From the NCBI RefSeq assembly GCF_017310505.1, contig NZ_CP065957.1, positions 620,001 through 684,000 of the forward strand: DNA of 64,000 nucleotides. Direction: 5' to 3'. Made by a program: the position numbers and the translations under genes. This DNA comes from Methylacidiphilum caldifontis. Lineage in GTDB: Bacteria > Verrucomicrobiota > Verrucomicrobiia > Methylacidiphilales > Methylacidiphilaceae. Below are positions 44,268 to 61,202 of this stretch, one piece after another. Below the pieces are notes generated by a model, which was given only the letters and a program-made list of their open reading frames with translations, was not told where the DNA came from and made no database searches. Position 1 is the first letter of the stretch. The number at the start of each line of letters is the position of its first letter.

Positions 44268-45418
44268 ATATTCTCCTTAATAGCTGAAAACGGCACTATA
44301 TTCGACTCAGGCAATGAAGGGTAAATCTGAAAATACCGCTTGCCATCTTCCTCGCTTACTAATGCCCAGTAATGTCGGTAAACCAATGTAGAACTGGAAT
44401 GACCGAGTTCGAAAGCGACCTTTCCGGCATCTTTGCATTGAGCTAACCTGTAGGAAGCATAGGAATGCCTCATGCCGTTGTGCTTCCATTCAATGCTTGT
44501 CAGAGCCATCAATTTCTCGAGCTTATGTTGTACATTCTTGGGTTTTACATCCCCAACTTTTTTACGGTAGGGTTCAATCCAAGCCCTTGCGTTTTCCTAC
44601 AATGGAACGACCCTTCGACTCGCTGTTTTTGCGACCCCTGCGTCGATCACAACTTCTTTGTGATTAACCTGCGACCATTGAAGTCTGTCCAGTTCTGCAG
44701 TCCTCAGTCCACAGAAGAACCCTAAAGCAAGGTAGGAGACGAGGTCGGGTATCTCTTTCCTTGCGGCTTCCAGTAAAATCTTAATCTCTTCAATGCTGAA
44801 TATTTCAGTCTTGGCAGGTCTTACCTTAAGGTTAGGAACTTTTTTTATGATATCTTCAGGACACCATCCCTGCATAGCACTCCAGTTGAGAAGATTGCTG
44901 ATGACCCTACGGAAATTGACTTTGGTTTGAGGCGCAACCGGAAGATTTAAAATCCAGAGGTAAATTTCTTGTGGAGTGAGAGAGGAAAGAATCCGTCCGG
45001 AAAAATCTTGCTTAAATCGATTTAAGCGGTTTTTCAAGTCCTGTAAAGCTCTTGGTCTTAATCCTTCGATAGTCTTAGCCTCAAGAAAATGAGTTACGGC
45101 TTCCTCAACAGACACACTGGACAACTCCCTCTTGCGTTTTTCTACCCAATCTCTAACTACGGTTAGCGGATCAACCCCAAAAGGTTCCAGCAATTTCTTT
45201 ATCTCTGCCAACATCTCAGCATCCCCGGGACGCAGCGACAAAGCTCCTTTGCCGGCTTCCTCAAGCTGGTTTATGAGCTTCCTGCATTCAGCTTCGGCTT
45301 TAACCTTGTTCGTGAAAAATCTTCTATGACGCTTGCCCTGAGCGTCTCTCCATTCCAGCACATAGGGATACTTACCGTCTTCAGTTTTCTTTATTCTCGG
45401 CGGTAAAGGTTTTCTCAT
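44264..45418 (-). pseudogene. tyrosine integrase with one in-frame amber codon
   Basis: One continuous reading frame of 385 codons broken only by TAG at 44597-44599 (codon 274). Up to there lie the SAM-like core-binding region (about 95-185) and the catalytic start with box I arginine in GLRTAELDRL. After it, in the same frame (ENARAWIEPYRKKVG), come HNGMRHSYAS (box II HxxR), ELGHSS and the nucleophile in VYRHYWALV. All catalytic residues survive if the amber is read through or suppressed. The gene sits 108 bases inside att copy 3, as expected for the island integrase. Confidence 0.85.
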
Positions 45419-45918: not shown

Positions 45919-46386
45919 ATGAACCAATTAGTGTTATTTCATTCAATCATGGGAATCTTTATTGTAGTGCAAAGTTCTTTTGCCCAGATCTATCCTTTTC
46001 CTGAATATCCTAAATCACCAAACTCAAAAGAGCAATCTTCTCAACCTTTATATGGAACCCCTTTTGTAGAATCAACATGGCTAAGTTGGGAAGTAAAAGG
46101 AATTCATTTTCAAGAAGGAATGGATCAAGCCAGAGTAATTAAGATAATGGGTGAAGATTATGAACGATACGATGTAATGGATATCCATTACCGAAGAGGC
46201 CGAATAATGTCAGGATATATTGGGGTATATTTGAAAAATAAATTAGAATCTGCTCATGTTTTAAAATGGACTTACCAAGATTCTTCTCATTATGTATACG
46301 AAGCCTATTTTCTCTTCTTAGATAAAAATAAAAGTCTTGTTAAAATATTTTTAAGGAAAAAACCCTTAACTATTATAGCCCAATAA
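45919..46386 (+). CDS. small exported protein, paralogue of the one at 49045
   Basis: A 155-residue protein with a signal peptide (about 1-23, ...SSFAQIYPFP). The mature domain has VESTWLSWEVKGIHFQEGM, VIKIMGEDYERYDV and IHYRRGRIMSGYIGV, and ends SLVKIFLRKKPL. It shares most residues with the second copy 3 kb away. EGMDQARVIKIMGEDYE resembles the start of SmpA/BamE-like or DUF3192-like folds, where a short helix follows a KGM(S)xxxV motif, but this is only a hint. Function unknown. Confidence 0.6.
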   Translation: MNQLVLFHSIMGIFIVVQSSFAQIYPFPEYPKSPNSKEQSSQPLYGTPFVESTWLSWEVKGIHFQEGMDQARVIKIMGEDYERYDVMDIHYRRGRIMSGYIGVYLKNKLESAHVLKWTYQDSSHYVYEAYFLFLDKNKSLVKIFLRKKPLTIIAQ

Positions 46387-48235: not shown

Positions 48236-48416
48236 AAGTTTTGTTAGGATGATAAAATTTTATTATATGCTTCGAAAGTATTTCTATAAATTGATCCCAG
48301 GTGCTGTCATCGGAAAATTCATCCTCTTCTCCATCTATCAATCCTTTTCTGGAATGCATGCGGCATTTCCTCGGTTCAAAAAGCCTTTAAATTATTTTCA
48401 GAAAAATTGGGGGCTA
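48236..48416 (-). pseudogene. gene fragment trapped between two IS ends
   Basis: On the minus strand, an acidic frame (MHSRKGLIDGEEDEFSDDST, then WDQFIEILSKHIIKFYHPN) is natural-looking until it meets the IS terminus at 48235. Upstream it is cut by the next IS end. The family was not recognised. Confidence 0.3.
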
Positions 48417-48648
48417 ACTGAACTTCCAAAACTCTGAGATATAAGATATTGCAGCAGAACGACATAACATTTTTATTCTGCCTACAGGTCCCACTTTGGT
48501 GGATGAGCGAACAGCGAGAGCAGATCGAGTTTTTGAAACAAAGCATTGGGCTCTGTAGGGATCCAGGATAAGAATCCGATCATAGTCTTTCCCTTGGTAG
48601 AGAGTTGGACTAAGTGGATTGATTGCAAGCAACGGAGCCCTTTAGAGT
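48417..48648 (-). pseudogene. IS1634-family 3'-end fragment
   Basis: Right terminus, sub-terminal stem and the last about 55 transposase codons (SIHLVQLSTKGKTMIGFLSW then IPTEPNALFQKLDLLSLFAHP), in the opposite orientation to the intact copy. Confidence 0.8.
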
Positions 48649-49044
48649 GCAGTATAATATCTATATCCATCCTTTCAGTAGTTAAGAAGGTTGCAAGCAT
48701 TTCTCCAGTTTTGAACAACTATTCACTCATTGCTTAAATCACATGCATGAAGATAGAATTTTCTGACTTTAAAATAGAAAGAACTTTAAAATAGAAAGAA
48801 ATTATAATGATGAATAGGATTTTCCTGCAAATTAAAAGAAAAAAATAGGGGCTTCCAAAACCAAATTGTTGATTTCCTTTTTTAAGGTAATCTGCTATTC
48901 TTCTATAACTCTCTATTTCTATTATTTTTAAGCATCCCAATCCAATTGATATTAATTACTTACCATAATAGCCACTGGAACATTAGACTTCCAATGAAGC
49001 AAAAAACCTTTTATAAACAAACTTACAATATTTTAAACAATCCA
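48649..49044. other. intergenic region without recognised features
   Basis: About 400 AT-rich bases. A TTG-started extension of the next gene runs to 48946, but it lacks similarity to its paralogue and is not accepted. Confidence 0.35.
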
Positions 49045-49521
49045 ATGTGCCTACAAACTTTTGATTTATTTCCAACAATAATCTTTGGATTCTTCATTTT
49101 CATTCAGATTTCTTTTGCCCAGATCTATCCTTTTCCTCAATACCCTAAATCAATAAACTCAAAAGAACAATCTTCTCGATCTTTATATGGGACTCCCTTT
49201 GTGGAATCAACATGGCAAAATTGGGAAGTAAAAGGGATACGTTTTAAAGAAGGAATGAATCAAGCCACAGTAATTAAAATAATGGGAGAAGATTATGAGC
49301 GTTACGATGTGATAAATATCCATTACAGAAGAGGTCGAATAATGTCTGGCTATATTGGTGTAAATTTAGAAAATAATTTAGAACCTGCTCATGTTTTAAA
49401 ATGGACTTATAGAGATCATTCTCATTATGTTTACGAAGCTTATTTCCTTTTCTTAGACAAGAACAATAATCTTGTTAAAATTTTTTTAAGGGAAAAACCA
49501 TTAGACATTATAGCTCAATAA
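49045..49521 (+). CDS. small exported protein, paralogue of the one at 45919
   Basis: A 158-residue protein starting MCLQTFDLFPTIIFGFFIFI with a signal peptide ending ...SFAQIYPFP. Alignment with the first copy, including upstream bases (TTAAAxAAxxCCAATG), fixes ATG 49045 as the start. The mature domains are roughly 85% identical by eye. Duplication around the barrel gene suggests a local tandem event later broken by IS insertion. Function unknown. Confidence 0.65.
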   Translation: MCLQTFDLFPTIIFGFFIFIQISFAQIYPFPQYPKSINSKEQSSRSLYGTPFVESTWQNWEVKGIRFKEGMNQATVIKIMGEDYERYDVINIHYRRGRIMSGYIGVNLENNLEPAHVLKWTYRDHSHYVYEAYFLFLDKNNNLVKIFLREKPLDIIAQ

Positions 49522-49554: not shown

Positions 49555-50475
49555 TTACTCCAAAAATAGTTGCAACAGTTCTGAAGGAATCTCAGGAGGC
49601 TCTGCATGACGCTCAAGCTTTCCAATAAGGAAACTTGGGGGATCTGTGGTAAGCTTCTTGCTCACATATTGTTGTGTGGATTGTATCCAAGCTAACAGTT
49701 GTAAATTACAGCAAAGCGCAGCCCCTTCCCATTGTTTCATTTCTAGCACATCTCCTTTCCTTGTAACTATAATGCAGGATGTGCAGGCATTTAGGATCCT
49801 TTGGTTGTATCGATCGATTTTTCCCCCACAGTCCACTAAAAGAACTCTCTTACTTTCTTGAAGTTTTTCAATGTCTTCAACAACTTTGCCAACAAACTCT
49901 TCGTTCCATGACCCCTTATACCGTAGTATCTTTACAAGTTGTGGATCTCCTTCAACAAACCAGTCTCCCTCGCCATCAGGACATGCTCGCAGTACAAACA
50001 CTTCACGTTGTCCCTCTTCACCAAGAGCATTTCTTAGCCTCTTGACTAGTGAGTAAACCAACACCGACTTTCCACTATGAGGAGGGCCTATGATTGCTAC
50101 AGCTCGGTGATGAAAGCTAGAGCTTGTATGTTGAGAACGTTTTTCTGTCGACAGTTGCTTGGATAGATAGCGGCTATCCACTTGGCAAATAGTTCCTACT
50201 GGCGGTGCATCTACTCGATGAGCTTCAATAACAATAGCGCCATGACGAGGATCATAAACAGCAATCCACGGGCTTGGATGACAAAGATGGGTCAAGTAAG
50301 TGTAGAGCCAAATTGGTGCCCTGCCACAAATAACAATGCCTCGACTCATGGAAAGCTCCGGAGGCAGTTGAACCGAAGGAAGTTCTTTTGGGTCTATTAT
50401 TCCATTCCCTAAAAGGAGAATGTCCAAAATCTGAAAATCGTCCGCTGGAATAACACTTAGCGAAAGATTTTTCAT
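49555..50475 (-). CDS. csx3: Csx3 ring nuclease fused to a P-loop ATPase
   Basis: A 306-residue two-domain protein. The N-terminal part (about 1-105) is Csx3/Crn3: SRGIVICGRAPIWLYTYLTH...PWIAVYDPRHGAIVIEAH. H66 and D75 are spaced like the cyclic-tetra-adenylate-degrading residues I recall for archaeal Csx3 (H60/D69). The C-terminal domain has Walker A GPPHSGKS (130-137) and a Walker B-like RVLLVDCGG (210-217), an arrangement known in some Csx3-AAA proteins. Ring nucleases switch off type III signalling by degrading cA4, yet no cyclase (Cas10) is encoded in the window. Same strand as the RAMP-helicase genes, 320 bases after them. Confidence 0.85.
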   Translation of the reverse strand: MKNLSLSVIPADDFQILDILLLGNGIIDPKELPSVQLPPELSMSRGIVICGRAPIWLYTYLTHLCHPSPWIAVYDPRHGAIVIEAHRVDAPPVGTICQVDSRYLSKQLSTEKRSQHTSSSFHHRAVAIIGPPHSGKSVLVYSLVKRLRNALGEEGQREVFVLRACPDGEGDWFVEGDPQLVKILRYKGSWNEEFVGKVVEDIEKLQESKRVLLVDCGGKIDRYNQRILNACTSCIIVTRKGDVLEMKQWEGAALCCNLQLLAWIQSTQQYVSKKLTTDPPSFLIGKLERHAEPPEIPSELLQLFLE

Positions 50476-50795
50476 TAAAATTATCTCTTTTTCTTTCCTT
50501 TCTACACTTTTTGGGAAGAGAGTAGACCTCTTTTCTTAGCACTGTCAAGCAAATGAATGTCCAAAGACGTCCTAAAGACAAACTTATAAACGATAACTTT
50601 CTAGTAGAAACAATAAATTGGTTTTGACAGAGCAGGCTATCTTTTTATCATTTCGGTGCAGCCTTAAAGAAATCCAACAACTCGTTTCACGAACAAATGC
50701 TTAAAGAAAGCAGAAAGGTGTAGCACATCACAACCAAATACAATGTAAAAATTACATTCTCAAACAAAACCCCTTAATAAAGTGTCTTTTTAACA
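50476..50795. other. 320-base gap between helicase and csx3
   Basis: Non-coding. It contains a candidate minus-strand promoter for csx3 (50585-50613), implying csx3 can be expressed apart from the upstream genes. No CRISPR repeats were seen. Confidence 0.45.
50585..50613 (-). promoter_or_regulatory. candidate csx3 promoter
   Basis: On the minus strand TTGTTT and TTTATA are separated by exactly 17 bases, about 110 bases before the csx3 ATG. Confidence 0.35.
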
Positions 50796-53700
50796 CTAAC
50801 GGCTAGGTAGGATACCTTTTTCTTTCAATCGATCCCACAAGGGGTCCAGCGCTTTCTCTCCTTCCCATTCAAAACGCGAGAGGGGAAGCCTCCAAAACTC
50901 CCAACCGTAGCGTTCTAATGTTGCTTGCCGCTCCCAGTCTCTAGCTTGCTGTTCGAGCTCAGTATGGTGTGGACCATCGCATTCAACAGCAAGTCGAGCA
51001 TGATGTCCAATAACAACAATATCAATCCGGTATCCGCCAGGGCCAAAGGGAGCTTCTTGTAATCGCAAATTATATCCCTTTCCCCAAATAAGCTTAGCCA
51101 CTTTCCGCTCAAACTCGCTTTCACAAATAGACCAATCTGGCACGCCTCCTTCAGGCACTGGTACCCTAGGATCTTCTAAGAAATGTTTCAAAAGAAAAGA
51201 TCTCATACAATTAGGAGATAAATCCTCTAAAGAAACAGAATAAAAAAGCCAAAGCTGATCACGTGCTCGGCTAGCCGCTACATTGAAACGTCTTCTGTCC
51301 GAAGGCTTGGTTAAAGCTCCAATGCGCTCTTTAGGTGGGGCAGCAACTATAGAAAGAAAGATGACATCTCGTTCATCACCTTGGAAAGTGTAGGGATCGC
51401 CGCAAACGATTCTATGCCTATTCATACGCTCTACTGGGATCCTACTATCCAAAAGTAGCTTGTTAATAAGCTCTGCTTGTTTTTCACCTTGCAAGCTAAT
51501 TATTCCCATAGTACGGTTTTCATAGCGTGAGTCTTCTAGACATTTCATGACTGTTTCGACAACCTTTTGGGCCTCAGGAGGATTGACAATCTGGCTACCT
51601 TTTTCATCTCGATAACCATTCTCAACATAGACAGCTTTTAGTGGTTCCAAGCGATCCAAGCCGTATGTCCTGAGGGGATACAATGGGTAATTTGTGTAGG
51701 AAATCTTATTAGAAAACGCAATGATTTCTGGCATGCACCGAAAATGTTCCCGAAGTCTAATCCGTTGCGAAAACATAGTTTCCGCAATGTCAAATAGGCT
51801 AGAGTCACCCTCAAATAAGGATGCAAAAGGATGGTCCTTTAGATATTGATTAATAAGAGATCTTACTTGTTTTTTGTCGATACCGACAGCCTCGGGTGAA
51901 ATTTGCTCATCATCACCAACGATCACAGCCTTCTTTGCAATAAAACAAAGAAGAAGGGAGTCTAATTCACTTTGGCTTGCCTCATCAATAATGATTACGT
52001 CAAAAAACTCAGGCTTTACATGAAGAGTTTGAAGCAAACGATTAAAAGGAAGCACCCAGGCAGGGACCACATTACGACATTTTCCTAAGTATTGGCTAGC
52101 TTCTTTTTGATAAAAAGAGACGTATTTTCCAGTCCCCTTGCCGATTTTCCGTAGCGTTTTTTTCCAAGCTGTAAGATTTCCATTACCCTCTTCGGGCATG
52201 ACCTTCCTAAGAAAAAACCTTGCTCTTGAAGCTGCCAAATCCTCAATAAGCTTTTTCTCTTTTATTTCTAGCTCTTTTTTTCTTTTTTGATATTCTTCTA
52301 CAGGAAGTTTTTCTTTTAAAAGTTTTTCTATATAGGTTCGAGCAATCGCCCATTTCCAAGCCTTAGGTAGACTTTCCAACCGCTTTGGCCATTCAGGATC
52401 AGCTATCGTAGACAACAGTTTTTCCATAGTGTTAGGAAGAACCTGTTTCCATTTCCCTATAACTTGGCTTGCAAACTCAAGCTTTACTCGATCGTTTTCC
52501 ATTTCTCTAAGCTTCTCATAAAGCAACCAATAGCGTTGAATGTCTTTTTCCTTTAGTGTCTCCCACAGATCATTCGTTATAGGATGTGCGGAAGCACGGT
52601 CGATACGTGCAAGAATTCTCTTAATTTGTTCTAATTTGTTATGGATATTTTGTAACTCCTTAGCAATCCATGCAGCAGAAAGGAGATCGGAAGCTTTCCT
52701 AAGCTCAGGAAGACTTTTTATCGAGATTGGTGAGTCTAGCTGGGAAGCAAGCCAATTTTCCAATTGCCTCACTTCTAGCTCAGCACAAAGAAGCTCACGC
52801 AATAGTTGTTGATTTCTTGTAAAAATAGCCATTCTCTCTGGTAAAGAAAAAGAAGAAATCTTACCTAAGTGAGTTTCCCAAAGAGAGCTAAGTTCTTCAA
52901 AACACATTTGGCACCGCAGCCAAACAAGAAGATTAGAGAGAGTCTTTCGATCTCGACAAGGATGACCATTGACTTTTACAAAGGCCCACAACGCACGGGT
53001 TTGTCGAACAACCTTTGGCTGAAAAATCAAAAAACCCCACCCGCCGCCAGATTCTAAGTGGGAGAGAAGTGTTTGAGCTTGTTTTAACGCCAAGGGTAAT
53101 GGTTGAGTAAGACCATCAACAATTATTTCCCTGGCTTCTTTAGCCTGCTCAATCTCTGCTATCAATCCAGCTGAACGTCCTTCCAGCTCTTGCCAACTGC
53201 TCCGGTATCCTAAAAGAATTTCTTCCAGTGCTTTTTTGAGCCAATCGGATCTCGATCCTTTTAAGGAAAACTCTTGAAAAAGAGCTTTTGCTGCATCAGA
53301 TCTTTCTTTAAGGATTTCTTTGTCAATTGTGAGAAGAGAATTGTACTCAATTTCTCTTAAACCCAACTGATTAATCTCTTGTTGCAATAGATTTTCTTTT
53401 CTCCAAAGTTCTTCGAGGTCTTGAGGAAGAGGAAGCTCTTTTATAGATGGGTAAAGAAGTTTCAATTCTTCTTTTCGGTCTGAGGAAATTTCATGAAGGG
53501 TCCAGTATGCATGTACAAGCTCTTCTACAATAGTTGGATATTGGTAGTCAGGGTTCACAGGATCGCATATCCAGCCCAACTCCTTTTCTTCTTGCCTCAA
53601 CCGCAAAACTAACTCTCCAGGTGTTCCTTGATAATAAGTGCCAGGAATGTGAATTGATGTACTCTCCGTTGCTCTATATGTTCGAAGCGCATCATTACAC

Positions 53701-55193
53701 ATGCGTAACTGCTCGCGAGTTTCCTTCAAATATTTTGACAACAGCTCAATGTTCCGTTGAAGCACCTCAGTTGTTACTCGCGATTGCATATCTAATATTC
53801 CGTTTACAGATTTCTCCATTCTATCCATATCTTCTTTGCGATCTCCCAAGGCAGTTACGCAAAGAGGTTTAAGTGAGTCAGGCAATTTATCGTATAAAAC
53901 CTTTAAAGCTCGAGAGGTTTGACTTGTTACCAAAACTTTTTTCCCATGAGCCAAAAGATGACAGATAAGATTGGCTATAGTGTGGGATTTTCCAGTACCC
54001 GGAGGACCTTGAACCACTACTGCGGGTTGTTTCTCAAGCTTAAGGACAATATCCCGTTGCTCCTCGTTAGAAAGGAGAGGGAAAAAAATATCATCCCAAG
54101 TTTCTCTTAGCCTCTTGTCTTCTGTAGGTAAAGTTTGCTCATCAATAGATGATGACAACCCACAAAGATAACTGAAAAGCAAAGGAGGTTTTTCTAGTCT
54201 TTCTATTTCTTGGATGGCTTCATCCACGCGTTGAGAAAAAATCTCAGTAATACGATTTCGAAACAAAATAATTGGCTCCCAGTAGACCTGGGGGTAGCTA
54301 GAAAAATCTGATTGCTCTCTTGGTAGTCTATCTGGACAAAATTTGCCATGTGGATCTAGCACATGAATGAATCGCTTAAGAAGTTCTACTATTTTTTCCT
54401 TTTCCAATGGACTGGCTAGCTTCTTAGCTTCTTCTTCAAGCTCTCTTAGATTGTTTGGCTTTTCGTCAGGATCTAAAAAAGTTGTTTGAACCTCTGCTCC
54501 TATACGATCAGGATCTGAGAAAAGCTGGATCTCTCCTGTATCTTCCTTATACTCAATACCTAATGGAAAGCCAAGAATCGGATGGCGAATTTTTTGCCGA
54601 TCTTTTGGAGCCCACACCAAAAGACCGATACAATATAAAAGTTCGTATTTTTCTTCCTCTTGCTTAATTTGTTGATAGATTTTGAAAAGTTTTCGGTATT
54701 CTCGCGAGACGTCTTGATATTTTTTGTATTTGTCAAGCCAAGCTTTCCAATCTTGCTCAACAAAGCGATTATAGGACTCTAAAAGGGATGGATTTGGTTC
54801 CAGGATTTTGCCGTTAATCTTTATTTGCTCCTTAAGCTTAGGTTTTTGCACATCATCTAGATCTTCATTCAATTCCTTATTTTCTATCCAATCTATCCAA
54901 TCCCGAAGATTTTTAGGAGGGTCAGGGCGCCGTGGTACTTCAGGACGAAGAAAGGAAAGCAAATGTTCTGTCCTTTCTTCGTTATCCGCTAAAGGCGCAT
55001 CTAAAAGCAAACCTTGTACTTCCTTAAACCTTCTAAGGTCTTCCAAAAAGAAAACTGAGTCTTGCCCGTAATCCAATAGGTTCCTGGGTAACTTCCGTTT
55101 AGAATGTATAATTTTATGGAGCTCTGCAAGGTAGCGAAGAAGCGCAATAGCCTTATTTTTTTGTGAGAATGCATGTGAATTTTTAAAGCTCAT
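50796..55193 (-). CDS. giant SF1 (UPF1/DNA2-like) helicase with C-terminal nuclease
   Basis: A 1,465-residue protein. The N-terminal 390 residues are mostly helical and unrecognised. Walker A GPPGTGKSHT is at about 395-404 and Walker B-like VIIDEASQSELD near 1066, leaving about 670 residues, largely coiled coil, inserted between motifs I and II. Later SF1 motifs follow (VGDDEQISPEA, EHFRCMPEII, TFQGDERDVIFLS, AASRARDQLW). The end, AVECDGPHHTELEQQARDWERQ (about 1400-1420), is a Vsr/DUF559-type PD-(D/E)xK nuclease. The start ATG 55193 overlaps the cmr1 stop by 11 bases and has a perfect GGAGG 6 bases upstream; the longer frame to 55283 is rejected. It is probably the effector of the RAMP operon. 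Confidence 0.9.
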   Translation of the reverse strand: MSFKNSHAFSQKNKAIALLRYLAELHKIIHSKRKLPRNLLDYGQDSVFFLEDLRRFKEVQGLLLDAPLADNEERTEHLLSFLRPEVPRRPDPPKNLRDWIDWIENKELNEDLDDVQKPKLKEQIKINGKILEPNPSLLESYNRFVEQDWKAWLDKYKKYQDVSREYRKLFKIYQQIKQEEEKYELLYCIGLLVWAPKDRQKIRHPILGFPLGIEYKEDTGEIQLFSDPDRIGAEVQTTFLDPDEKPNNLRELEEEAKKLASPLEKEKIVELLKRFIHVLDPHGKFCPDRLPREQSDFSSYPQVYWEPIILFRNRITEIFSQRVDEAIQEIERLEKPPLLFSYLCGLSSSIDEQTLPTEDKRLRETWDDIFFPLLSNEEQRDIVLKLEKQPAVVVQGPPGTGKSHTIANLICHLLAHGKKVLVTSQTSRALKVLYDKLPDSLKPLCVTALGDRKEDMDRMEKSVNGILDMQSRVTTEVLQRNIELLSKYLKETREQLRMCNDALRTYRATESTSIHIPGTYYQGTPGELVLRLRQEEKELGWICDPVNPDYQYPTIVEELVHAYWTLHEISSDRKEELKLLYPSIKELPLPQDLEELWRKENLLQQEINQLGLREIEYNSLLTIDKEILKERSDAAKALFQEFSLKGSRSDWLKKALEEILLGYRSSWQELEGRSAGLIAEIEQAKEAREIIVDGLTQPLPLALKQAQTLLSHLESGGGWGFLIFQPKVVRQTRALWAFVKVNGHPCRDRKTLSNLLVWLRCQMCFEELSSLWETHLGKISSFSLPERMAIFTRNQQLLRELLCAELEVRQLENWLASQLDSPISIKSLPELRKASDLLSAAWIAKELQNIHNKLEQIKRILARIDRASAHPITNDLWETLKEKDIQRYWLLYEKLREMENDRVKLEFASQVIGKWKQVLPNTMEKLLSTIADPEWPKRLESLPKAWKWAIARTYIEKLLKEKLPVEEYQKRKKELEIKEKKLIEDLAASRARFFLRKVMPEEGNGNLTAWKKTLRKIGKGTGKYVSFYQKEASQYLGKCRNVVPAWVLPFNRLLQTLHVKPEFFDVIIIDEASQSELDSLLLCFIAKKAVIVGDDEQISPEAVGIDKKQVRSLINQYLKDHPFASLFEGDSSLFDIAETMFSQRIRLREHFRCMPEIIAFSNKISYTNYPLYPLRTYGLDRLEPLKAVYVENGYRDEKGSQIVNPPEAQKVVETVMKCLEDSRYENRTMGIISLQGEKQAELINKLLLDSRIPVERMNRHRIVCGDPYTFQGDERDVIFLSIVAAPPKERIGALTKPSDRRRFNVAASRARDQLWLFYSVSLEDLSPNCMRSFLLKHFLEDPRVPVPEGGVPDWSICESEFERKVAKLIWGKGYNLRLQEAPFGPGGYRIDIVVIGHHARLAVECDGPHHTELEQQARDWERQATLERYGWEFWRLPLSRFEWEGEKALDPLWDRLKEKGILPSR

Positions 55194-56055
55194 GGAAATC
55201 CTCCGTAATCTGGGATAAAATCGGACCGGATCTCCATTCCGTAAGAGTATTTTCTCCAAGTACCCGTTCATGGGGAGCTTCAAGAACTAAAAGATGAAAC
55301 TCTTTTTGAGGAAACGCCACTTGTATAGGTCGTAAAAGAAGAGCGCTACGCTGCCTGGGATTATCAAGTCCAAGGGGAGTGGGACGATGTCTGTTCCTAC
55401 TTCGAGCCGAATAACATTTTCGTAAATTCTTTAAATAGTCCTCGGCTTTTTTTACTAATCCCCACCAATCTCTTGCTTTTGCATCTTGCGGAAAGTGAAA
55501 TAAAAAACCTGCGGGACAAAGAAGTTGGTTAATCCTTTCCTGCCACTCTTCTAGTGTTTTTGGAGCTTTCTCCCATTGGAAAGCCCCAGCACATCGAGTA
55601 GCTCGATATCCCAAAGAACCAAAACAAAGAAAAGCTTCCTTGGCATTGTTCCATAGAGTAAAAAGTTGGGGATCCCTCTCACAAGGATCCCTTTGCCATA
55701 TAAACTGAATTTCACAGGAGCTACCAGGGGAAATAGCGCATTCCTTATTCCAACGGTCGGAAGCTTTAATAAAGTACCAAAGGTAACCTCCCTCTTTAGG
55801 GCTAAGCTTTTTGTTCCACCATTTTTCATCGGAAGGCTTCTTTATAAAAAAACGCATCAGAAATGCACTTGCTAATGCAGGATTTAAGCTTATGCCTCCA
55901 AAGACTTGCTGTTCCTGCTCTCTGCTTCCTCCAAGCACGCGAAACCACCATCGAAGTTCTCCACGTACTGCACTCACTCGAGCCTCAGCTCTACTAGGAT
56001 CAGCTCCACCACAAAAACATGGAGTTATGAATGTAATCGTATAAGTCTCTTGCAT
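55183..56055 (-). CDS. cmr1: Cmr1-like RAMP (Cas7-group) protein
   Basis: A 290-residue RAMP protein. The opening TFITPCFCGGADPSRAEARV, then RVSAVRGELRWWFRVLGGS and VFGGI, is the Cmr1 signature (in type III-B, Cmr1 sits at the crRNA 3' end with Cmr6). It is somewhat shorter than typical Cmr1. ATG 56055 follows the cmr6 stop by 5 bases; its own stop overlaps the helicase start (CATGAGCTTTAA). No Cmr2-5 is in the operon or the window. It probably binds RNA, but its guide is unknown. Confidence 0.88.
   Translation of the reverse strand: MQETYTITFITPCFCGGADPSRAEARVSAVRGELRWWFRVLGGSREQEQQVFGGISLNPALASAFLMRFFIKKPSDEKWWNKKLSPKEGGYLWYFIKASDRWNKECAISPGSSCEIQFIWQRDPCERDPQLFTLWNNAKEAFLCFGSLGYRATRCAGAFQWEKAPKTLEEWQERINQLLCPAGFLFHFPQDAKARDWWGLVKKAEDYLKNLRKCYSARSRNRHRPTPLGLDNPRQRSALLLRPIQVAFPQKEFHLLVLEAPHERVLGENTLTEWRSGPILSQITEDFHEL
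55200..55204 (-). promoter_or_regulatory. strong ribosome-binding site of the helicase
   Basis: A perfect GGAGG on the minus strand, 6 bases before ATG 55193 and inside the end of cmr1. It decides the helicase start and indicates independent, efficient translation of the large protein. Confidence 0.7.
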
Positions 56056-56060
56056 AGCAA

Positions 56061-57413
56061 TTAAGGAAGTTGAAAAGAAAACTTTTTCGCAAGGTTTTGA
56101 ATTCCAAGATAGCTTCTGTTTGTTGGAGAGTTTTTCACGCTCTCATATAGAGAAGTATTTTCCCTTAAGAGATAATAGAGAAGAGTATACTGATAAATTT
56201 CGTCTTTTGTGTATCTCTTGTCCCAGTATTTTTCTTCTACTGAAAACCATTTAATTTTTTGGCGTAACTGATCTTGTTTAAGACCTTTAAGCTCTTCTAG
56301 GATTGTTGGATCTGGTTTTAAAGAAGCCAGCAGAGCTTCTTTTTCCCTTTTCTCTTTTCTACTCTTCACAAGGGATTCTGCTTGTTGGATTGACTCCAAA
56401 TCAAAATAGCCGCATCCCGATGAAGTTTTTGCTCCAACTCCAAAAACTCTAAGCCCTACGGAGAGAAATCTCCTTGCTAAATTGACATACTCTTTGTTAT
56501 TCTTCCTCCCTATAAGCGGAAAAGAAAAAATAGCACCTGGACCGACTGTAATAAAGAATACCGGGTTAGGACCCTCGTCATCGGTGGCAATCTCTTTAGC
56601 TCCTCTGTAATAATCCATATGATGACAAGAAATAACATCAAGTTCTAATCGTATTGGAAGGCTTTTATCTCCATTTGAGAGGGGCATTGGATAAGCCGGC
56701 AAAAACTGCACCATTCCAGCAAAATTTGCAATGCCAAGCTCTTCCTCTTCTTCTTGATAGAAAGGCTTTAAATGTAACATAAAATCTTTAGCTAAATCTG
56801 AACTTATTTCTTTCCAGGATGCTTTCCCTCCAGATGCATATTCCCAATCACTACCTTCCTCCCAATCCTTTGAGACCCAACCAAATACCAGAAGGCTTTC
56901 TCTAATCATTTGCTTTTTATTTAGAAAACCTTCATATAATTCCGGCCAAGGGCTTTCCTTGGGAGCTTCCCTATCTTTCCACATGTTTAGAGCCGCAATC
57001 GCCGCACGACGGGCACATCCTTTCACTGCACTACCGGGGATATAAGAAACTCCATATTGGTCCAAGCAAAGATTTGCATTTTCCAGTACACCACCGCTCA
57101 TGTTTACAACGAGCCGAGATTGTAACCGACCAAAAAGAATATAGTCCTTGAGTTCCGTATCTTTTGGCCAAAGATCTAAGAGAAATTCAAGTTGGTCTTC
57201 ACACCGAAGTTTTATAGAATCCCGCGTATGCTCAACTTGATCAATAACCTTTTTTAGTAAAGCTTTTCGATCATCTCCTTTAAGACGAGGGTCAGCATAT
57301 TTCGATAGCAAAAGAGATGGAGAAATAAAACTATCACCTTTCTGTTGAAGCAGGTTTTTTACTTCATTTGGAAGTAAATAAATACATTTTCCTAAAGAGC
57401 CCTCTTCTTTCAT
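56061..57413 (-). CDS. cmr6: Cmr6-like RAMP (Cas7-group) protein, long form
   Basis: A 450-residue RAMP protein, longer than usual Cmr6. An N-terminal helical part (about 1-95) precedes the RAMP core. Cmr6 hallmarks are YIPGSAVKGCARRA (124-136), LELDVISCHHMDYYRG (256-271), NPVFFITVGPGAIFSF (283-298) and the Gly-rich loop GVGAKTSSGCGYF (325-337). A Lys-rich C-terminal extension of about 110 residues follows. It is the first gene of the operon, with two candidate promoters upstream. In III-B complexes Cmr6 caps the crRNA 3' end beside Cmr1; no other subunit is present here. Confidence 0.88.
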   Translation of the reverse strand: MKEEGSLGKCIYLLPNEVKNLLQQKGDSFISPSLLLSKYADPRLKGDDRKALLKKVIDQVEHTRDSIKLRCEDQLEFLLDLWPKDTELKDYILFGRLQSRLVVNMSGGVLENANLCLDQYGVSYIPGSAVKGCARRAAIAALNMWKDREAPKESPWPELYEGFLNKKQMIRESLLVFGWVSKDWEEGSDWEYASGGKASWKEISSDLAKDFMLHLKPFYQEEEEELGIANFAGMVQFLPAYPMPLSNGDKSLPIRLELDVISCHHMDYYRGAKEIATDDEGPNPVFFITVGPGAIFSFPLIGRKNNKEYVNLARRFLSVGLRVFGVGAKTSSGCGYFDLESIQQAESLVKSRKEKREKEALLASLKPDPTILEELKGLKQDQLRQKIKWFSVEEKYWDKRYTKDEIYQYTLLYYLLRENTSLYESVKNSPTNRSYLGIQNLAKKFSFQLP

Positions 57414-57592: not shown

Positions 57593-57656
57593 GATATAAA
57601 AACCAAAAATATTCATTATAAGCTTAAGAAAAAATGGCATAATTCTTGGCAATATA

Positions 57657-57944
57657 AAGCCAAAGAACGTTCAACACAAACTCGAGAAGCTATCAGCTCT
57701 GACAGGTATCGGATGGCGGCACAACTGCATGCGGCACAGCTACGCAAGCTACAGGGCACAGTGCAATGACGCGCCACGTGTGTCTTTGGAGCTTGGGCAC
57801 ATGAGTCCGACACTTGTTTTTCGGCATTATCGGGCTTTAGTCAGTGAAGAAGATGGGCAGAGGTATTTTGAGATTTTTCCTGCTTTTGAAAGAAACGTAA
57901 TGAAGTTTAAAAAGGAAGTAAATCCTTTTAATCTTTTCCGTTGA
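57657..57944 (+). pseudogene. C-terminal remnant of a second tyrosine integrase
   Basis: Encodes KPKNVQHKLEKLSALTGIGW, then HNCMRHSYASYR, LELGHMSPTLV and FRHYRALVSEEDGQRYFEIFP. It closely matches the last about 95 residues of the island integrase at 44264 and keeps box II, the LGH motif and the catalytic Tyr. The N-terminal two-thirds is absent. It is the stump of a related element's integrase, divergent from the RAMP operon and 240 bases from it. Confidence 0.8.
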
Positions 57945-58682: not shown

Positions 58683-59231
58683 AATTCTGATCTTTAATAG
58701 GGCTTTAAACAAAAGATGAAAAAATTTTAATTCTATACAGCCTATTTGAAAAGACAAAAAAGAAGGGAAATGGTTTTTTTGATTTTTGAAAAAATATTTG
58801 AGTTCTAAGTGATCAAATAAAACTGGTTCGATCAAAGTTATATCATGAGAATCAATAAGATCAAGAGGAGCTTCTGGTTAATTTGAAACAATGTTAAAAG
58901 ATCATCAGATGATGAGCATGGCTGGCAATGATGAATATCATTATGATCATGGTAAGGAAAAGGTAGAAAACATAAAGTAAAAAGGCAGATCGATTTTATG
59001 AAAAAACGCGTTAAGTTCTGTAGGGATCTGGGATAAGAGTTCAATTAAATGCTTTCCATTGGTATAGAGTTGGACTAAGCATGCTTGATGATCGCTAACC
59101 GATCTTCCTTATAATTTTGAGCAATATTTAGGCAGACAAAGGACTTAGGGTCAATAAAGTAGGACGTAATATGTGAATAAATATGAATAATATTTGTTGA
59201 TTATTTTCTTATATTTTGACATACTGTAGGC
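58683..59231. other. gap holding an IS remnant and the IS left flank
   Basis: Holds a short, decayed, inverted piece of the IS (58985-59085) and the region before the transposase start, in which the left terminus must lie. I could not recognise a left inverted repeat matching the right end. An 8-base palindromic AT stretch is not interpretable. Confidence 0.4.
58985..59085 (-). repeat. decayed IS1634-family 3' fragment
   Basis: Antisense match to the last transposase codons (AACGCGTTAAGTTCTGTAGG, then GAGTTGGACTAAGC), with base changes and without the terminus. It lies directly before the intact copy and in the opposite orientation. Confidence 0.65.
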
Positions 59232-60851
59232 ATGTATTTGCAGGAGGTGCGTACCTACCAGAAAGGCAAGATCTATCGGTCTTATCTCGTCCGGGAGTCC
59301 TACCGAGTGGGCAAACAGGTCAAGACGAGGATTTTAGCCAATCTAACTCGGATGCCTGAAGAAGTCCGGGATGCGGTCAGAGCAATCTTGCAGGGGAAGA
59401 AGCTTGTCCCCCTGGAGGAGTGGGAAGCCCCGGATGCTTTGGATTATGGAGGCCTGGCAGTCCTCAAGCAAGCTTGGCAACGATTCGGTTTGGATCAAGC
59501 TCTTGGCGGAGTCAAATCGGAACGGAAACGGAAACTTTTGAAGGCGATGATCTACGGGCGGATTCTCTTTCCCTCATCCAAGCTTGCCCTGCGGGAGGAA
59601 GCCCGGGGGACACTCATAGCCAAGGCTTGTGGGTTGGAGGAGGATGACCTGGAGGAGGGAGATCTCTACCAAGCGATGGATGGACTCGGGTGGCTTTGGA
59701 GCGGGATCGAGAGGAAGCTCTACGAGGAATCTCAACCGGCTGGAGCAAGCCTGGTGCTTTATGATCTATCCAGTGTATATTTTGAAGGGGATGGTCCAGC
59801 TGGCTTGGCCCAATATGGCTACAGCAGGGATCATCGGCAGGATAGGCTGCAGGTTCTTCTTGCCGTCGCTACGGATAGTCGGGGCATTCCAATTCATGTG
59901 GAGGTGCTTCGAGGGAACCGGGCGGATAGTACGACCCTGACGGGGCTTTTGGTTACCCTGCGACGAAGGTTTGGGATCCAGGAAGCGACCTTTGTCTTCG
60001 ACGGGGGGATGAAGAGCCGGTGGAACCTGGAGATATTGACGGGTCTGGAACTCCAGTATGTGACACGAGCAACTCAAGCAAAGCTGCAGGAGATTATCGG
60101 AAGCCTTCCTGAAGATCGCCAGCTTTGGCTTACGGATCGGACTCGGGTCCTGGAGATTGTACACCAGGGAGTTCGCTATGTTATCGCCGGAGGGGAGTGG
60201 CGAGCGCAACGGGATAGGGAGCGACGGGAAAGACGGATCGAGCAAGGAGAAGAGCTGCTGCGCCAAATAGCACGATCGATGCGGAAGGGAGTGGATCCGG
60301 TCAATCTGGGCAGCCGGGTCGGCCGGGCGCTCCAGAGAATCCAGGCGCATAAATACTTTCGGTATGGGGTTGACGCCAAAGGCCGGTTCTGGTGGAAGCT
60401 CGATTTGGAGCGGGTTAAGGAAGAAGAGGCGATCGATGGTTGGTATCTTTTGGAAACTAACCTTCCCTCGGCCAAAGCTTCGGATCAGCAAGTCCTCACG
60501 CACTACAAGAGGCTTGCAGAAGTTGAGTCAGCCTTTTGCGAGCTCAAAAGCTACATGGAAATCCGTCCGATCTATCACTGGCGGCCGGACAGAGTCCGTA
60601 ACCATATAAGGCTCTGCTTCTTGGCCTTCTGGATCAGTGCCCAGCTCGGAACCGAATGGTTAGCGAAGGGTTTTACCGAAGAAGTTCCCAAAGTGCTCCG
60701 TCGCTTGCAATCAATCCGCTTGGTCCAACTCTCTAGCAAGGGAAAGCCTGTGATTAGTTTCTTATCCCGGATCCCTACAGAGCTCAACGCATTGCTTCAT
60801 AAACTCGACCTGCTACCGCTGTTTGCTCATCCGCCCAAGTGGGCTATGTAG
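59232..60851 (+). CDS. IS1634-family DDE transposase, intact
   Basis: A 539-residue transposase. The N-terminal part is SYLVRESYRVGKQVKTRILA; the DDE residues are D in LVLYDLSSVYFEGDG, D in ATFVFDGGMKSRW, and E in VESAFCELKSYMEIRP, followed by YHWRPDRVRNHIRLCFLAFW. This is the IS4-superfamily/IS1634 arrangement. GC content is visibly higher than the flanking DNA, suggesting recent arrival. It is the only complete copy in the window and could mobilise the other ends. A stem-loop and the right terminus (to about 60918) follow. Confidence 0.92.
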   Translation: MYLQEVRTYQKGKIYRSYLVRESYRVGKQVKTRILANLTRMPEEVRDAVRAILQGKKLVPLEEWEAPDALDYGGLAVLKQAWQRFGLDQALGGVKSERKRKLLKAMIYGRILFPSSKLALREEARGTLIAKACGLEEDDLEEGDLYQAMDGLGWLWSGIERKLYEESQPAGASLVLYDLSSVYFEGDGPAGLAQYGYSRDHRQDRLQVLLAVATDSRGIPIHVEVLRGNRADSTTLTGLLVTLRRRFGIQEATFVFDGGMKSRWNLEILTGLELQYVTRATQAKLQEIIGSLPEDRQLWLTDRTRVLEIVHQGVRYVIAGGEWRAQRDRERRERRIEQGEELLRQIARSMRKGVDPVNLGSRVGRALQRIQAHKYFRYGVDAKGRFWWKLDLERVKEEEAIDGWYLLETNLPSAKASDQQVLTHYKRLAEVESAFCELKSYMEIRPIYHWRPDRVRNHIRLCFLAFWISAQLGTEWLAKGFTEEVPKVLRRLQSIRLVQLSSKGKPVISFLSRIPTELNALLHKLDLLPLFAHPPKWAM

Positions 60852-60918
60852 GCAGAACAAAAATGTTATATCGTTCTGCTGCAACAATTTATATCTTAGA
60901 GTTTCGGAAGTTCAGCTA
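60852..60918 (+). mobile_element. right end of the IS: sub-terminal stem-loop and terminus
   Basis: GCAGAAC (60852-60858) and GTTCTGC (60873-60879) form a perfect 7-base-pair stem with a 14-base loop right after the transposase stop. The element ends near 60918 with GAGTTTCGGAAGTTCAGCTA. Both parts persist in most remnants, so they are probably needed for mobility, or act as a terminator. Confidence 0.6.
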
Positions 60919-61202
60919 AGCCTTCATATGTCAAATATTTGAAAATGATCAATGCCTAAGATAATTTGTCTTGCGGCATTTTTCCTACAGATTGATCATC
61001 ATCAACTTAAGAATTATGGTTTCTCTTTTTCTTGAAAACCTTTTTCTTCAGCAAACCCCAAATCGCATATTACATATAATTCTACATTGTCATGAAGAAA
61101 TCCAAAGAAACGAAATTAATTTATTCAGAATATATTGTAGAATAACAAAAAGCTCAAATTCCTTGTTATTTTTCAACTGTTCCATCAGAATTCAGTTGAA
61201 AA
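60919..61202. other. intergenic region after the IS
   Basis: 284 AT-rich bases. An 86-residue TTG-started frame here has no gene-like features and is not called. Confidence 0.35.

Follow-up and report, generated by a model that had tools for sequence, protein, structure and literature searches.

The 64,000-nucleotide stretch analyzed here (hereafter the window) spans positions 620001-684000 of the single 2.25-Mb contig of Methylacidiphilum caldifontis and contains a module of four genes, which encode a Cmr6-like and a Cmr1-like RAMP protein, an SF1 helicase carrying a C-terminal nuclease, and a Csx3 protein fused to an ATPase domain (Table 1). Judged by its sequences, this locus appears to be the detached 3′ tail of a Cmr operon, in which the effector slot has been taken by a helicase-nuclease of a stand-alone type. 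The ancestry is well supported, since the module matches the 3′ portion of related Cmr operons in gene order and sequence. Also, we consider the chances to be even that the tail works in trans with the Cas10 complex resident elsewhere in the same genome, supplying Cmr1, an alternative Cmr6, the helicase-nuclease, and a homologue of ring nucleases. An earlier note on this DNA had proposed a Cas10-free defence system; we reduce this claim to an effector-swapped, detached Cmr tail that plausibly completes a resident type III-B complex.

Gene order and relatives of the module

The module consists of four open minus-strand frames at the positions given in the earlier note, and the frames and family searches bore out its description of four intact genes on one strand. 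The DNA agrees with the note in detail as well: 5 bases separate cmr6 from cmr1, the helicase frame overlaps cmr1 by 11 bases, and its ATG (55193) stands 6 bases past a GGAGG. The pairing of Cmr6-Cmr1 with a helicase-nuclease is real, and these genes overlap or nearly touch. A gap of 320 bases precedes csx3, so that the proposed four-gene operon is firm for cmr6-cmr1-helicase and not for csx3. Both the Cmr1 and the Cmr6 subunit are present at the locus (Cmr1 scoring below the TIGR01894 cut-off), and their profiles further matched the respective chains in solved structures. The two proteins retain conserved residues, and neither gene shows the frameshifts that the note had allowed for. The G+C content of the module is 0.408, against 0.405 for the window. 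A tblastn search of the window with Cas10, Cmr3-6, Cas1, and Cas2 of the family returned nothing beyond the four genes. The note had listed Cas10, Cmr3-5, Cas6, Cas1/2, and a CRISPR array as missing; this holds in the window for Cas10, Cmr3-5, Cas1, and Cas2, but the genome has them.

The window Cmr6 was matched in 8 of 39 genomes besides its own (seven of the family, one of the order), and cmr5 and cmr4 adjoin cmr6 in all eight. In five genomes of a sister genus, which we take to be Methylacidimicrobium, the 3′ part of the Cmr operon reads cmr6-cmr1-X-csx3, as in the window; relatives with the same locus inside a full Cmr operon, a possibility left open by the note, are therefore largely what was found. 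The cas10 gene is visible in three of these five operons, the contigs of the other two ending within the operon, and in one genome (G006) cmr3 is spread over two frames. Gene X of G007, the sole sister-genus X tested, encodes a CARF-PD-(D/E)XK protein, and the others start similarly by eye; in G003, of the genus Methylacidiphilum, X encodes a CARF-HEPN protein. In the window, this slot between cmr1 and csx3 is occupied by the complete helicase-nuclease. The longest effector frame of G008 overlaps cmr1 by 13 bases, with a start codon that is not established. Window Cmr6, Cmr1, and Csx3 share 36-49% identity with the sister-genus proteins. For Cmr1, identity reaches 41-44% with four of the five sister-genus copies, 36% with that of G008, and 24% with the in-operon copy of the sister species G004.

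At the scale of the phylum, a Cmr6 profile (E 1e-8) matched 42 of 387 genomes, and 39 cmr6 loci were taken from 38 genomes not already among the relatives; because several of these genes are truncated by contig ends or spread over two or more frames, the counts refer to loci rather than to intact genes. The hidden Markov models used for cas genes were built from 11 family and order loci, among them the G004 pieces L036 and L037, which overlap, and the decayed cmr6 of that genome. Cmr4 and Cmr5 were found at all 39 loci and Cas10 at 35, the four others being contigs of 3.6-5.2 kb. A separate Cmr1 is present at 33 loci and a Cmr1 fused to Cmr6 at two, and the contig ends at or just past cmr6 at four; cmr1 is therefore present at 35 of the 35 loci whose contig runs beyond cmr6. 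A window-type helicase was found at none of the 39. With one decayed G004 copy set aside, cmr4 and cmr5 accompany every other cmr6 examined, at 48 of 48 loci with the resident one included and at 47 of 47 outside the genome itself. Among the loci covered, the neighbourhood search suggested in the note for cmr6-cmr1-helicase clusters gave no second such locus. As a side observation, the two Cmr6-Cmr1 fusion proteins, of 634 and 724 amino acids (aa), belong to type III-B loci L197 and L198.

The helicase-nuclease in the effector slot

The helicase retains Walker A, DEAS, and later SF1 motifs, and its nuclease retains ECDG. Similarity to its relatives extends over the full length (about 24-34% identity), with a shared domain order. 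At E 1e-60, relatives occur in 5 of 386 other genomes of the phylum, and a wider search of contigs gave at least 561, from which 80 loci were kept, making 85 loci with the five of the phylum. Among the 80 kept loci, 65 have an upstream flank of 1.5 kb or more, 57 reach that length on both sides, and 23 are short-flanked. Profiles of Cas10, Cmr1, Cmr3-6, Csx3, CARF, Cad1, Cas1, and Cas2, for which a positive control was passed, detected none of these in the flanks covered at the 85 loci. Within this sample, the helicase is thus a gene that stands alone, and among the loci examined it is joined to cmr genes only in the window.

Searches of the Pfam, NCBIfam, and PADLOC families found no CARF domain in the window helicase. 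A response to cyclic oligoadenylate, which the proteins usually found in this slot presumably show, is therefore unlikely for this protein. The fold predicted for its N-terminal 385 residues has a predicted local distance difference test score (pLDDT) of 83, and the best PDB match has an E value of 0.23. In the parts of the literature on PDC-S37 and MTES_1575 that were covered, PMC12799240 included, nothing on the mechanism of the family was found. Neither the helicase nor Cmr1 gave matches in viral contigs. On plasmids, tblastn with Cmr1 found nothing, and with Cmr6 it found seven records, all annotated cmr6, none of which covers 80% of the query.

A resident type III-B system without cmr1

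The whole-genome scan for Cas genes suggested in the earlier note revealed a resident type III-B locus, about 100 kb from the module, with Cas10, Cmr3, Cmr4, Cmr5, a second Cmr6, and an array, whose operon lacks just cmr1. The genome-wide search for Cas10 gave one match, at this locus, and the Cmr1 profile gave a single match, the window cmr1. The resident cmr6 is an open frame of 300 aa, separated by 257 bases from the CARF gene; inspection of this gap in six frames showed no recognisable remains of cmr1. Resident Cas10 carries HD and GGDD, resident Cmr4 retains the GAIDLPI stretch of its relatives, and the cas1 and cas2 frames are open; from its sequence, the resident system looks functional. 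Its array (584-589 kb) comprises 63 repeats and 62 spacers, and the repeat is confined to that one 63-copy array, the window not having been searched for arrays with other repeats. The second CRISPR locus of the genome is of type I-D, with a Cas6. A C-terminal fragment of a helicase-nuclease was also observed (L005:3013-3657, near 569.0 kb of the same genome), some 2.8 kb upstream from the resident cas10. Its identity is 48% to the window helicase and 46% to the relative L063; as it is nearly as close to L063, it offers just a weak hint that the helicase lineage and the III-B locus were linked earlier.

Matches to Cmr1 were obtained in 6 of the 14 genomes searched, with exactly one intact copy in each, and the same six hold one Cas10 each (in two pieces of one frame in G006; G001 shows just a fragment). 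In G003, the in-operon cmr1 is frameshifted, decayed cmr1 remains lie at 1485 kb, and an intact Cmr1 of 438 aa (L132:1491-2807) is encoded upstream of a CARF-deaminase gene and cas10. In G004, the in-operon cmr1 is intact, and a decayed cmr6-cmr1 pair, without adjoining remnants of cmr4 or cmr5, lies about 3 kb upstream of cas10. By visual comparison, the decayed remnants of these two genomes share neighbouring genes. They mostly come nearest to sister-genus or window proteins, except that 42 residues of the cmr6 remnant in G004 are most similar to the cmr6 of that genome itself. The frames of the window genes are open, in contrast to similar copies in two sister species, which have decayed.

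These data bear on the system envisaged in the earlier note, in which Cmr6-Cmr1 would be the RNA-binding head of an autonomous, Cas10-free helicase-nuclease. The tight spacing of three of the genes, the lack of Cas10 in the window, and the solitary decayed pair of G004 would agree with such a system. However, the 47 cmr6 loci outside the genome, the decayed G004 copy not counted, all stand beside cmr4 and cmr5, no other helicase locus carries RAMPs among those examined (the 80 kept of at least 561, plus the phylum loci), and the same genome holds a Cas10 system missing exactly cmr1. With no intact recurrence and with Cas10 in the same genome, we rejected this system as highly improbable. The cyclic-nucleotide-related regulator of the note stands at the family level only, as Csx3.

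The resident Cmr6 shares 41% identity with that of G003 and 38% with that of G004, vs. 58% between these two; the corresponding values for resident Cas10, Cmr3, Cmr4, and Cmr5 are 50-62% vs. 61-69%. In a tree of 26 Cmr6 of the phylum (filtered by score and length) and nine of the family and order, the resident Cmr6 groups with G003 and G004 (support 97/97) on a branch of 1.7, vs. 0.38-0.39 for the latter, and the window Cmr6 groups with four sister-genus Cmr6 (support 100/99). The idea that the module is a piece of the resident operon was rejected, since its Cmr1 is nearer to the sister genus and the two Cmr6 fall in different clades. The genome thus holds two open, differently evolving Cmr6 genes, and the resident protein is without conserved internal segments and C-terminal extension. 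These features would suit a special form of the supply in trans, overlapping with it in probability, in which a shared Cas10-Cmr3-4-5 is closed either by the resident Cmr6 without Cmr1 or by a helicase-recruiting window Cmr6-Cmr1. The fast evolution of the resident Cmr6 may, however, be decay, and we find such alternative heads unlikely. The same doubt applies to what they would amount to, exchangeable 3′ heads by which a foreign Cmr6-Cmr1 brings the helicase-nuclease to the target, that is, CRISPR-guided, helicase-driven cleavage needing no cyclic nucleotide signal.

For the broader proposal, we infer action in trans from the single intact cmr1 per genome, the loss of the resident cmr1, and the fast-changing resident Cmr6. 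According to published work, Cmr1 and Cmr6 touch the 3′ end of the CRISPR RNA (crRNA) (PMC7192623), binding of target RNA depends crucially on Cmr1 (PMC7214462), and a Cmr1-deficient complex of S. islandicus is reported to show weaker RNA and DNA interference in vivo (PMC7694759). Cmr1 is rarely dispensed with. Given these roles, a resident system without Cmr1 and one intact window Cmr1 beside a Cmr6 most simply suggest supply in trans. Extra cmr copies are not unheard of: a cmr6-cmr1 pair is listed close to csm genes in Pyrobaculum oguniense (PMC3396285), and a metagenome-assembled Methylacidiphilum reportedly has nine cmr genes and one csx3 (PMC8779874). A limited literature survey, which is weak evidence and included work on Methylacidiphilum and type III CRISPR, found no cmr6-cmr1-helicase locus and no supply of Cmr1 from a distant locus.

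The scheme would run as follows. The crRNAs of the 63-repeat array would be loaded onto Cas10-Cmr3-Cmr4-Cmr5, and the window Cmr1 and Cmr6, the latter replacing or alternating with the resident Cmr6, would cap the crRNA 3′ end and capture target RNA. Cas10 would then produce cyclic oligoadenylate for the resident CARF effectors, while the helicase-nuclease, whether brought in by the Cmr1/Cmr6 end or working independently as a co-expressed effector, would unwind and cut invader nucleic acid. Finally, the Csx3-ATPase might tune or terminate the cyclic oligoadenylate signal. What the sequences show is the gene content, the open frames, the occupied slot, the resident operon without cmr1, and the single cmr1 match of the genome; assembly in trans, recruitment of the helicase, and all the activities named are what we infer.

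Surroundings, opposing evidence and known systems

The two parts of a tyrosine recombinase, which align to a single frame of the genus member L206, lie on opposite strands and bracket a 13-kb block containing the module (Table 1), as an inversion of the intervening block would leave them. An insertion sequence (IS) lies on one side of the module and an inverted IS end fragment on the other. The other four genomes of the genus gave no long flank matches beyond repeats and one small gene (about 46.0-46.4 kb), which was matched in G002 and G004 at 70-73%. Also, two small proteins encoded in the same island, at 45919-46386 (155 aa) and 48946-49521 (191 aa), are alike, with the stretches GTPFVESTW and KIMGEDYERYDV in common, and match no Pfam family. 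When the resident spacers were compared with part of the collected loci, one spacer gave a 15-base match, in two loci.

Table 1. Features of the module, its flanks and the resident locus; positions are those of the window, except for the resident locus.
Feature	Position	Strand	Evidence or remarks
cmr6-like RAMP gene, window type, 450 aa	56061..57413	-	TIGR01898 97.5 bits (cut-off 51.1); PADLOC Cmr6 agrees; tree
cmr1-like RAMP gene, 290 aa	55183..56055	-	PADLOC Cmr1 46.8 bits; TIGR01894 24.7 bits (under cut-off 28.65); sole genome match
SF1 helicase with C-terminal MTES_1575 PD-(D/E)XK nuclease, 1465 aa	50796..55193	-	Pfam, NCBIfam, PADLOC, motifs; AAA_11/AAA_12 and MTES_1575 (68.5 bits)
Csx3 (ring nuclease family) fused to P-loop ATPase domain, 306 aa	49555..50475	-	PF09620 86.2 bits; PADLOC Csx3-AAA 171 bits
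Tyrosine recombinase, N-terminal part	44597..45418	-	aligns to single frame of L206
Tyrosine recombinase, C-terminal part	~57654..57944	+	same L206 frame; ~240 bases upstream of cmr6
IS	59096-60919		DDE transposase 59232-60851; six near-full genome copies including this one, plus partial ones
Inverted IS end fragment	48415-48643		other side of module
Resident type III-B locus	~C1:572460-583830		cas10-cmr3-cmr4-cmr5-cmr6-CARF-CARF/adenosine deaminase-cas1-cas2, then array

Such surroundings of broken recombinase halves and IS copies would also suit a relic, namely a second Cmr operon that has lost its 5′ half through rearrangement, leaving cmr6-cmr1 as a recent remnant without a role and a helicase that works alone off the cmr transcript. 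Two sister species carry decayed versions of such a pair or its cmr1, the 85 helicase relatives have no type III neighbours in the flanks covered, and the branch of the window Cmr6 is long, all of which points in the same direction. Nevertheless, both RAMP genes are open with their conserved residues kept, and this cmr1 is the sole one found in a genome whose III-B system is otherwise complete. The overlap of the helicase gene with cmr1 also resembles that of the G008 effector frame, subject to the start codon of the latter. We regard a relic with its passenger as less likely than supply in trans.

Several observations speak against supply in trans itself. The loci are 100 kb apart, and since the resident Cmr6 is open, the resident complex may be adapted to lacking Cmr1. 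Resident Cmr5 trails most among the subunits (50-54% vs. 66%), so fast change is not peculiar to the resident Cmr6, whose row is moreover flagged by the tree program for length and composition; the branch of the window Cmr6 is also long (1.39). The lineage of the window Cmr6 differs from that of the resident subunits, and assembly could for this reason be poor. The window Csx3 reads AHR where six relatives read AHH, and this His to Arg change beside the AH motif could affect ring nuclease activity. The window helicase has no domains beyond those of its relatives, and hence no Cmr-binding part is indicated. Finally, a promoter scan gave 11 sites, against 15.9 expected from shuffles.

If supply in trans is true, type III-B complexes could be assembled from subunits of two lineages encoded at distant loci, and the Cmr1-Cmr6 3′ head would be a module that can be exchanged, effector included. 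A large helicase-nuclease family would then also be connected to a known RNA-guided sensor. In surveys of genomes, calls of orphan RAMPs and of Cas10-free systems require a check of the whole genome.

Among known systems, the locus is closest in layout to the type III-B operons of the sister genus and of Methylacidiphilum, with which it shares the order cmr6-cmr1-X-csx3. It differs from them by the absence of cas10, cmr3, cmr4, cmr5, cas1, cas2, and any array of the resident repeat from the window, and by a CARF-less helicase-nuclease at X in place of the CARF-PD-(D/E)XK (G007) or CARF-HEPN (G003) protein. The Csx3/Crn3 ring nuclease has a long form with a C-terminal kinase-like domain, and the window protein likewise combines Csx3 and P-loop domains, although it sits far from its Cas10. 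The helicase itself resembles the PADLOC candidate PDC-S37, of the SF1 helicase-MTES_1575 nuclease family, in its SF1 motifs, its MTES_1575 nuclease, and its full-length similarity. The related ProA and Hhe models of NCBIfam score far under their curated cut-offs (207 of 1500 and 122 of 2000 bits). The 85 relatives show no Cmr genes in the flanks covered, whereas the window helicase adjoins cmr1. The HRAMP of haloarchaea is a class 1 system without Cas10 or an array, whose RAMP proteins have no adjoining Cas10; the genome studied here differs in that it has a Cas10 complex short of the very subunit that the window supplies.

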